Made by a program: the position numbers and the translations under genes
In this document: piece after piece, positions 57,615-60,846 of the stretch
Layout of the letters: the number at the start of each line of letters is the position of its first letter
Position numbering within the stretch: position 1 is the stretch's first letter
Source: Halostagnicola larsenii XH-48
GTDB lineage: Archaea > Halobacteriota > Halobacteria > Halobacteriales > Natrialbaceae
Assembly (NCBI RefSeq): GCF_000517625.1
Contig: NZ_CP007056.1
Location: forward strand, 248,001 to 312,000
Direction of reading: 5' to 3'
Length of the DNA: 64,000 bases
Notes under the pieces: generated by a model
What the model was told of the DNA's origin: nothing
Database searches by the model: none
What the model saw: only the letters and a program-made list of their open reading frames with translations

Positions 57615-58610
57615 CTAGGGTTTCGGGGAGGCTTTCTGCAGCGACGTTTCGGCGATGTTCCCGCCGTAGTCGGCACAGCGAGAGAGCGAATCGAGGATCA
57701 ACCCGACGGACTGGGCTCGGACCGGATCCACGTCGCGGAGCATGTCGTCGATCTGCCGGTTGTGCTCGTCTATCTCGAGGACAGATTCGAGCGCGTCATG
57801 ACCGAGCGTGGTTGCTTTCGATCCGTCGTCGGTCAACAGCGCGTCCATCGATTTTTCGATGATATCGGCGGCGTCCCGATAGAGTTCGAGAAAGCCATCC
57901 GCAACCTGCTCGGGAAGGTCCTCGAGTTTGAGCGCGAGTTCGCTGATTTTGACCGCGTGGTCGGCGATCCGCTCGAGCTGGCGGGAACTCGAGTGGTAAT
58001 CGAAACAGTCCTCGCGCGGGACGCCCAGTTCCTCGGCCGCTCGGGGCGAACGCAACGTCGCGCGAAATATTCGCGAGACGGCGAGCCAGAGTCGGTCGAT
58101 GTCGTCGTCGCGATCGATCACGTCGCGTGCGATATCGTCGTCGTTCTCGACGAGCGCCGTCACCGCGTCTTTGAGCATCGACGTGGCGATCAACCGCATG
58201 CGAGTAACCGCGTCGAGAATCGACAGTTCGGATGAATCGAGTAGATCCTGTACGACGACCTGATCCGTCTGTTCTTGCACGACTTCGACCCCGATCAGTC
58301 CTTGAATCGCGCTCCGAATCGCTCGTCGCTGTTCCGTCGAAATCTGACTCGACTCGAGTCTGATAATGTCGAACCCGCTAACGTACATCGTCAACACCGC
58401 TCGAACGAGTCGTTCGCCCTCGAGAGTCGAAATCTCGAGTGAGCCCTCCTGATGATCGCCATCAGTCTGCGGTGTGACGATCAGGGTATCGTCTTGGGAG
58501 TAAATTTCGACGGTCGTCCCGCTGCTGACGCCGTTTTCGGTCGCCCAGGTTTTTGGAAGCGAAACAGTGTAGGTCGATCCACCGGTCACCTGAATCTTCC
58601 GCGTTTCCAT
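57615..58610 (-). CDS. AbrB-domain PhoU-like transcriptional regulator (second copy)
   Basis: This 331-residue protein has the same order as the one at 36751: an N-terminal SpoVT/AbrB domain (METRKIQVTGGSTYTVSLPKTW) then a long PhoU-like helical part with two repeats (SSSRQLERIADHAVKISELAL and LDSLSRCADYGGNIAETSL). A TATA-like ATATAAATA on the opposite strand (58634-58642) is 27 bases before the ATG, so the message is leaderless and independent of the pst operons. A general phosphate-responsive role is inferred from homology. It is convergent with the aldehyde oxidoreductase gene. Confidence 0.9.
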   Translation of the reverse strand: METRKIQVTGGSTYTVSLPKTWATENGVSSGTTVEIYSQDDTLIVTPQTDGDHQEGSLEISTLEGERLVRAVLTMYVSGFDIIRLESSQISTEQRRAIRSAIQGLIGVEVVQEQTDQVVVQDLLDSSELSILDAVTRMRLIATSMLKDAVTALVENDDDIARDVIDRDDDIDRLWLAVSRIFRATLRSPRAAEELGVPREDCFDYHSSSRQLERIADHAVKISELALKLEDLPEQVADGFLELYRDAADIIEKSMDALLTDDGSKATTLGHDALESVLEIDEHNRQIDDMLRDVDPVRAQSVGLILDSLSRCADYGGNIAETSLQKASPKP

Positions 58611-59165: not shown

Positions 59166-59490
59166 TCGACGCGTTCATCCCTCGAGTCGCCGTGACGCGG
59201 CCGTCGTGAACTGAAAACTTCCACGGAAACGACGCCCCGTTGCAGGTTACTGGTCCTGGGCTCTGTTAAAATCATTAGCACATGATAGGTTTGCACCCTG
59301 TACGGGAAGTACAGGTTAAGTAGGTAACGAGGCAGCAATCAACTCCACAGATAGCTATCAAGAGCAGCGTGCTGAATATTGAGGATACGTTCCGCACAGA
59401 GGCTCCGTTTGTTTCACGTCAACGACGAGGGACCAACTGCTCAGTAGACCTACGTACTGCGCACATACGATATCGATATCTCGGAGTTTC

Positions 59491-60252
59491 CTATTTTGAT
59501 AGAGTTTGACGGATACGTTCTACTATTGTTTCCTCATCGGTCATTTCAACTGTTTCTTTCCCGCCATCTCCCATCTTTTCTCTCGTGTCTCCACCATCGT
59601 CTTCCTCATCTTCGAACATTTCACCAGTCTCCTCATCGCCTTCTCCGAACGTCCCGCCTACTTCATCGCCATCTTCTTCGACCATCTCAGCTGTCTCCTC
59701 ACTACCCTCTTCGACCATCTCGCCTGCCTCTGCACCACCTTCTTCGATCATCTCAGCTGTCTCCTCACCACCTTCTTCGAGCATCTCGCTCGCCTCTTCA
59801 CCACTTTCTTCGACCATCTCACCGATCTGTTTACTTCCCTCTTCGATCTGATCGCTGAGTCCCTCGCTGGTCTCTCTAATTCGATTGGCGACGTTCCCCG
59901 TCGTTTCCTCCGTCTTTTCTGCTACTTTTTGACCACCCTTCTGGACTTGATCAGCCGCGCCGTGGGTCATCTCTCCCGTATAATTTTTGACCGTATTAGT
60001 GACTCCATGACTCTGTTTTGAGGAGCCGTCGTCCTCAGAACGGATCTTTTCTCTTGCTGGACCTAACCAATCTCGGAGCACGTAACCAAGGCCGATGAGA
60101 GTGACTACATCAATTAGACGGGGACGAGATCTCCCCTCCTCAGTAGTCATTCTCTCCTCATCGCTGGTCGCTATTTCCTCCTCGCTTGTCGTTTTCTCTT
60201 CGTGTCTGGTCGTCCCCCCGTGTGCGGTCGTCATGTCTGGCTTATTTGACAT
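59491..60252 (-). CDS. Membrane-anchored 11-residue-repeat (LEA-like) protein
   Basis: This 253-residue acidic protein has a hydrophilic N-terminus, one short hydrophobic segment (LIDVVTLIGLGYVLRDWLG, about 46-64) and then about thirteen tandem 11-residue units from residue 93 to 235, for example QKGGQKVAEKT, RETSEGLSDQI, EEGGEETAEMI and EEGSEETAEMV. The hendecad period is that of group-3 LEA proteins and right-handed coiled coils, so an extended amphipathic helix lying on a membrane or protecting one under desiccation is conceivable. Early units are mixed-charge and later ones very acidic. ATG 60252 is chosen; the codon before it is TTG. It sits inside the putative mobile element and has no clear homologue known to me. 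Confidence 0.7.
   Translation of the reverse strand: MSNKPDMTTAHGGTTRHEEKTTSEEEIATSDEERMTTEEGRSRPRLIDVVTLIGLGYVLRDWLGPAREKIRSEDDGSSKQSHGVTNTVKNYTGEMTHGAADQVQKGGQKVAEKTEETTGNVANRIRETSEGLSDQIEEGSKQIGEMVEESGEEASEMLEEGGEETAEMIEEGGAEAGEMVEEGSEETAEMVEEDGDEVGGTFGEGDEETGEMFEDEEDDGGDTREKMGDGGKETVEMTDEETIVERIRQTLSK
59548..59976 (-). repeat. Tandem 33-bp coding repeats
   Basis: These are the DNA units of the 11-residue repeats above, about thirteen copies. Central copies are similar at DNA level (recurrent TTCGACCATCTC and TCTCCTC words on the plus strand), which suggests recent slippage; outer copies have diverged. Confidence 0.7.
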
Positions 60253-60846
60253 CAATTAATATCATTGACCCCTATAGACAGTATACTTCGGCCAGCATCA
60301 GCAAGTCGGAAAAATGGCGGCTAGACCGCTATTACCTAAACAATATGTGGAGGATAATAGAAAGTATGGGATACATACTAGAGAAACAAACACGTATGTT
60401 CACTTGTAAGGGACTGTCCAATCTGAACGGGATCGACGTACCGCTGGTTGGCCAATTGGTGAGCAGTACACGCTATGCACTGTGCATTCACTCTTCCACA
60501 CTGATCGCCTCTCAGATCGTGTCACATTCGCGCCCTATATTCAGCACGACTCTGTCAACATCCCCTTCATCAGATAGATGTGATCGCGTTAGATTCGCAT
60601 CTGTAGTGTTCATGTGTCTCACGCTAAGATACGTCTGAATAATCGGAATTCAACAGAGCCTGGTCCCGAGTACGTTTGATTTCTGCGGATACCTCCGCTG
60701 CGTATGAATTCCCTTCGCATACGTCACGTAGTAGCGATAGAACCCAACCGATACGTCCGGTTCAGAACCATCCGTACTACTCAATAGAACAACTAGAAGC
60801 GGCTATGTGCCGTTCAGTCGTTGTCTCGAGTACCCAGGTCCCAACC
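60253..60846 (+). other. AT-rich gap containing the right end of the mobile element
   Basis: No gene is supported. The region to 60660 belongs to the putative element and has no halophile-like frame; the 186 bp beyond it lead to the DUF7511-like gene. A frame open from 60186 lacks acidic character and is rejected. Confidence 0.35.

Follow-up and report, generated by a model that had tools for sequence, protein, structure and literature searches.

How does a 1402-bp stretch that is bounded like an insertion sequence (IS), and whose only gene is not a transposase gene, come to stand at positions 59259–60660, and what could move it? We analysed the window, i.e. the whole stretch of 64,000 nucleotides (G000:C2:248001-312000; the genome comprises five contigs and 4.13 Mb), together with related loci in this genome and in relatives. 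The reading that we favour, with a probability of about 0.83, is that of a non-autonomous element with haloarchaeal IS5-type ends, one passenger gene and no transposase, which would be moved in trans and would belong to a family with exchangeable interiors.

Boundaries and related copies of the element

The left terminal inverted repeat, GGCTCTGTTAAAATC (59259–59273, plus strand), and the right one, GGCTCTGTTGAATTC when read inward (60646–60660, minus strand), are complementary at 13 of 15 positions, with the tip GGCTCTGTT. The target-site duplication directly abuts them, its left copy TGGTCCTG (59251–59258) matching the right copy TGGTCCCG (60661–60668) at 7 of 8 positions. Between the ends we found no transposase (59259–60660) and a single gene (59491–60252, minus strand; 253 codons from ATG) with a 33-nt/11-residue repeat, referred to below as the hendecad gene. 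An earlier note on this DNA had read by eye a transposase-less unit with one unrelated gene and near-duplicate flanks, and in boundaries and content its description holds.

A generic 13/15 inverted repeat with a 7/8 duplication, spaced by up to 3 kb, is expected by chance about 0.1 times per 64 kb, so that repeat and duplication by themselves are suggestive at most; with both ends at no more than two mismatches from GGCTCTGTTGAAATC, the expectation is about 7e-8. The end motif GGCTCTGTTGAAATCNTNAG has 21 matches in the whole genome at up to three mismatches, compared with 2 for the reversed control, and homology of the end repeats across the genome extends over ~60–70 bp. The right end segment (60591–60660, minus strand) is 83–86% identical to four other sites in this genome. 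The left end segment (59259–59314, plus strand) is related to left ends elsewhere in the genome as far as the box AGTACAG, inward of which the DNA is unrelated in each of these elements. Both segments are of a type, here called A, that is common in this genome.

Indeed, as the earlier note had suggested looking for, several end pairs in this genome have matching 8-bp flanks: C5:93597-94837 (1241 bp; GGATCAAC, 8/8), C2:380267-381504 (1238 bp; AGAAGCTC, 8/8), C1:1268203-1268798 (596 bp) and C3:319987-320732 (746 bp), both 7/8, and further short pairs at 6/8. Of 147 inward end pairs, 35 have flanks that agree at 7 or 8 positions, where shuffling of the flanks leads one to expect 0.76; the 147 pairs come from loci of this genome and of relatives, some of them repeated, and deduplication leaves 30 elements. 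In G001, a genome of the same genus, the genes that flank the element (for a C2H2-type protein and a DUF7511 protein) are adjacent, with a short spacer and no element. The empty site that the earlier note had called for is therefore seen at the level of gene order, where the junction is too diverged for the exact target to be read.

Could an ordinary chromosomal gene simply lie between accidental inverted repeats? The figure of ~0.1 generic repeats of such quality per 64 kb leaves room for it, but the ends are genomic repeats with ~60–70 bp of homology, the site is empty in G001, and the hendecad gene occurs at different loci in other genera; we regard chance as a negligible explanation.

Some further loci were noted alongside. 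G000:C3:186111-191297 (L165:6111-11297) may be a 5.2-kb element of the same type, with flanks GAATTTCC and GGATTTCC (7/8) and several genes resembling HTH regulators. Two identical 386-bp elements (G000:C1:887782-888167 and G000:C1:910065-910450) have near-identical surroundings, which suggests segmental duplication. Close to the window element, on the minus strand (57615–58610), lies a gene whose product combines an N-terminus of the MazE/AbrB type with PhoU domains.

Assignment of the ends to IS5

The earlier note had assigned the ends to the IS6 family. Both the tip GGCTCTGTT and a duplication of 8 bp agree with what has been published for IS6 (PMC7986276), and the likeness consists of an IS26/IS6100-type tip (GG..CTGTT) with an 8-bp duplication (7/8 in the window element); it cannot separate the two families, since IS5 relatives also make 8-bp duplications. 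The cognate transposases can. The copy C2:380267-381504 encodes a 273-residue transposase with Pfam DDE_Tnp_1, which scores 219.6 bits (cut-off 140) against NCBIfam NF033579, 'IS5 family transposase', and relatives contain many elements with GGCTCTGTTGAAATC tips, an IS5 transposase and 8/8 duplications. IS6 loci of the relatives (L191–L220, from a search with NF033587) have tips GGCACTGTCTAGTT, GGTCGTGTTTAGTT or GGCGGTGTTCAGAT and measure ~697–760 bp where both ends and the duplication were found; full IS6 elements with the termini of the window element, which the earlier note had named as support, thus did not turn up among them. Because haloarchaeal IS6 tips differ, and the transposases between GGCTCTGTTGAAATC tips are of the IS5 family, the IS6 reading fails and the IS5 reading holds. 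The window element shares its ends with elements that carry IS5 transposases rather than IS6 transposases, and at 1402 bp without transposase it differs from a simple IS6 element of ~700–890 bp with an IS6 transposase. A transposase-less IS6 element is thus hardly credible. The other part of the earlier claim, a mobile cargo unit, is borne out by the copies in the genome, the copies at other loci and the gene-order empty site.

Past its first 13 bases, the right end of the window element is still homologous to that of two copies with a transposase, at ~6 standard deviations above shuffled sequences. Homology of the left end to IS5-transposase elements beyond the tip is weak, and no transposase-bearing element with exactly this left end was found in this genome or in the relatives' loci. 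As no transposase, and hence no IS5 transposase of its own, lies between the ends, the window element is an IS5 derivative and not an IS. Its 8-bp duplication presumably places it with the ISH1-like subgroup of IS5.

We propose that an IS5 transposase supplied from another locus of the genome would bind both ends of the window element, move it and insert it with an 8-bp duplication. The obvious candidate for this enzyme would be the one encoded by the intact copy G000:C2:380267-381504.

Constant ends and variable interiors

In transposase-bearing copies the constant part stops just past the transposase stop codon, at CTAACGAYCAGTACAG: mean identity among five copies is 88% over the 55 nt upstream and 33% downstream. 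Among 30 distinct junctions on the 3' side of the cognate transposase gene we count 29 mutually unrelated groups of passenger DNA, each of which starts from CTAACGAYCAGTACAG. A left end together with a right-end candidate is present in 24 of the 30, and these are flanked by perfect 8-bp duplications in 12 cases and by 7/8 and 6/8 matches in one case each, the rest appearing random. Transposase-less copies have a left end of ~50 nt that closes in AGTACAG, after which the cargo begins. In the window element the corresponding box, AGTACAGG (59308–59315, plus strand), is also where the sequence common to hendecad copies in other genera starts. On the right, 21 independent sites have a conserved [CT]GNT[CA] immediately inside the core CGCA[CT][GC]TGTAG, and further inward information is near zero; the junction in the window element, CGTTAGATT followed by CGCATCTGTAG (60587–60606, plus strand), fits the consensus [CT]GNT[CA]A[GA]T[TA] then CGCA[CT][GC]TGTAG. 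Related boxes, on the left and at the conserved right positions, thus bound the variable region on both edges. Enrichment of AGTACAGG over permuted octamers is weak (50 against a mean of 27.5, with 5 of 60 permutations reaching at least 50), hence the case for the box rests on the alignments that stop at it. In some copies the left box (window 59297–59315; L036 near 2901) can form a small hairpin, CCTGTAC-N5-GTACAGG, which may have a protein-binding or structural role.

The passengers are diverse. A transposase-less element of 1300 bp in Natrialba aegyptia (NZ_AOIP01000040, L097:671-1970), flanked by GTTTGTAA (8/8), carries a PALP/threonine-synthase-like gene, and perfect duplications also flank several other members of the family that lack a transposase and carry different genes; a scan of the genome collection with the strict right-end pattern returned a single locus, in Natrialba aegyptia. 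Pfam identifies other passengers as saccharopine-dehydrogenase-like, CNNM, PBP-like, HNH-associated repeat, redoxin, DUF4870, DUF5518 and RDD proteins, and translations read by eye add several lipoproteins and one acetyltransferase-like protein. The 3.8-kb element L166:4149-7917 (G016:C1:1064149-1067917; ATAAAGCT, 8/8) contains an IS5 transposase, a PHO4 phosphate transporter, a universal-stress-like ORF and an IS1595 transposase. Nested insertion sequences occur in some long intervals (IS1595 in L166; IS66-like, by eye, in L170). Passengers are often transcribed inward from the right end, convergent with the transposase, and lipoproteins and small membrane proteins seem over-represented.

In the mechanism that we propose, the family would keep its ends, and the transposase where present, unchanged, and different genes would take the place of the interior at the box AGTACAG. 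A cargo-free copy, with the end of the transposase gene fused to CAGT-CGCA, was not found in 125 family genomes, and the 25 matches of this search show the sequence of the left box, as CAGTACAG or with slight variation; simple excision is thus not supported. More tentatively, this haloarchaeal IS5 lineage might serve as a gene-capture platform, in which a constant right end and a constant left end, the latter with or without the transposase, enclose a cassette from CGNTMAGTACAG to CGNTMAGTW-CGCA that is swapped by recombination at or near the boxes, making single host genes mobile and spreading them among haloarchaea. We hold this to be possible, with the odds somewhat against it. Such cassette spread would be roughly like that of integrons, which use other enzymes.

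Gene exchange is common among haloarchaea, and little is known of what carries single genes between them. A family of small IS elements with a different gene in almost every examined copy would, if true, be a direct vehicle of this kind, and the fixed box at its junctions offers a way to test how genes are captured. Many orphan lipoproteins and small membrane proteins that are annotated as 'hypothetical' and lie dispersed with no synteny would also find an explanation in it, and annotators would have reason to suspect genes of this sort of being IS passengers.

Relation to known mobile units

Mobile insertion cassettes (MICs) are known from the Bacillus cereus group, where they belong to the IS231/IS4 family. 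Like them, the window element has IS ends and a passenger gene without a transposase, and mobilisation is expected in trans; in form, as far as its sequence tells, it is a MIC of IS5 type. The present family differs in its IS5-type ends, its 8-bp duplications, its haloarchaeal hosts and its many passengers at a common junction box. MICs (PMC3129680) and transporter IS (tIS; PMC3129680, PMC7986276), the latter being IS with a transposase and a passenger gene, are known kinds of unit. The transposase-bearing relatives, such as L078, L240 and L244, fit the tIS, which the window element with its passenger alone does not, and the present family differs from the tIS in having a different passenger in nearly every examined copy. 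Compared with MICs and tIS in the open-access literature, this passenger diversity at one junction is unusual.

Haloarchaeal IS5 elements with 8-bp duplications share the tips, the duplication and the cognate transposase family NF033579; unlike the window element, classical copies have ~0.9–1.15 kb and no passenger, and more distant IS5 copies that we saw measure 919 and 940 bp. The MITEs of Haloquadratum, including the ISH2-type HqIRS32, are likewise transposase-free and rely on a transposase that acts in trans. An ORF is present in HqIRS32, yet these MITEs reach ~520 bp at most, and four of their five families have no coding sequence (PMC3119063). The interiors of the present family, by contrast, consist of unrelated genes, and the window element itself, at 1402 bp with an ORF, is neither short nor non-coding.

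Probable horizontal spread of the hendecad gene

The hendecad gene occurs in nine other genomes or plasmids, including other genera, in different contexts and at different loci. The copies in G055 and on a Natronosalvus plasmid are one and the same; together with a second ORF, this copy occupies an element of 2226 bp that has both ends and a duplication matching at 7/8. Those in G005 and Halomontanus retain one perfect right tip. In G050, of another genus, an IS5 transposase (NF033579, 238.5 bits) comes after a perfect left tip, and the hendecad cargo lies directly downstream of this transposase. Between this genome and the others dS of the hendecad gene is 0.18–0.48, far below that of the PhoU-domain gene neighbouring the element (0.90–1.44 against the seven tested), which indicates that the hendecad gene has probably moved horizontally; as PhoU-domain genes have paralogues, the comparison is approximate. 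Beside the hendecad gene in L030 and L032, CTCAGTACAGG boxes recur a few hundred bases apart, like cassettes joined in a row.

Alternatively, transfer on plasmids or by viruses, along with ordinary recombination, could account for most of the gene's spread, with IS5-type ends added locally and contributing little. Three copies are on megaplasmids, the outer end type varies between copies, and no convincing end was found within the fetched DNA of four (G049, G027, G045 and Natrinema DC36), so that other means of persistence or spread may also be at work for this gene. However, at least five of ten copies keep one or both IS5-type ends and one stands behind an IS5 transposase, so that we consider this alternative unlikely.

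The window copy appears to have a layered history. Inside its type-A ends lies a perfect inverted repeat, CGTGCTGAATAT (59368–59379, plus strand; right copy 60537–60548, minus strand), which resembles the subterminal TGCTGAATA of the type-B ends found on the G055 copy and related copies. These inner repeats are probably relics of older ends, and the simplest reading would be that an older type-B cargo was later re-bounded by type-A ends. Could the unit then be a decayed, now immobile single-gene remnant of a larger IS5 element with transposase and passenger? The inner relics at 59368 and 60537, the one mismatch in the element's duplication and the arrangement in G050 would agree with this. Both outer ends are intact, however, and of another type than the relics, which argues that the unit was bounded afresh, and perfect duplications flank several siblings that have no transposase and carry different genes. 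We thus judge a remnant rather improbable and prefer a non-autonomous element moved in trans; the two differ mainly in the present ability to move.

The passenger protein

The hendecad protein (253 residues) is strongly acidic, with 72 acidic and 25 basic residues. A single hydrophobic stretch at 46–64, LIDVVTLIGLGYVLRDWLG, is followed by acidic 11-residue repeats of the type EEGGEETxEMV, whose hydrophobic spectral peak lies at a period of 3.67. The best Pfam resemblances, apolipoprotein-like and YtxH-like, are all below cut-off; NCBIfam matches to T4SS and ZorA are far below cut-off, reflect low-complexity helices and were rejected. The most likely product is, from these features, a membrane-anchored amphipathic-helix protein, for which a protective or membrane-binding role may be envisaged. 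The reading frame is kept open in ten copies, with altered C-termini in three, and dN/dS over the whole gene, between the window copy and the others, is 0.22–0.69, consistent with weak to moderate selection keeping the protein.
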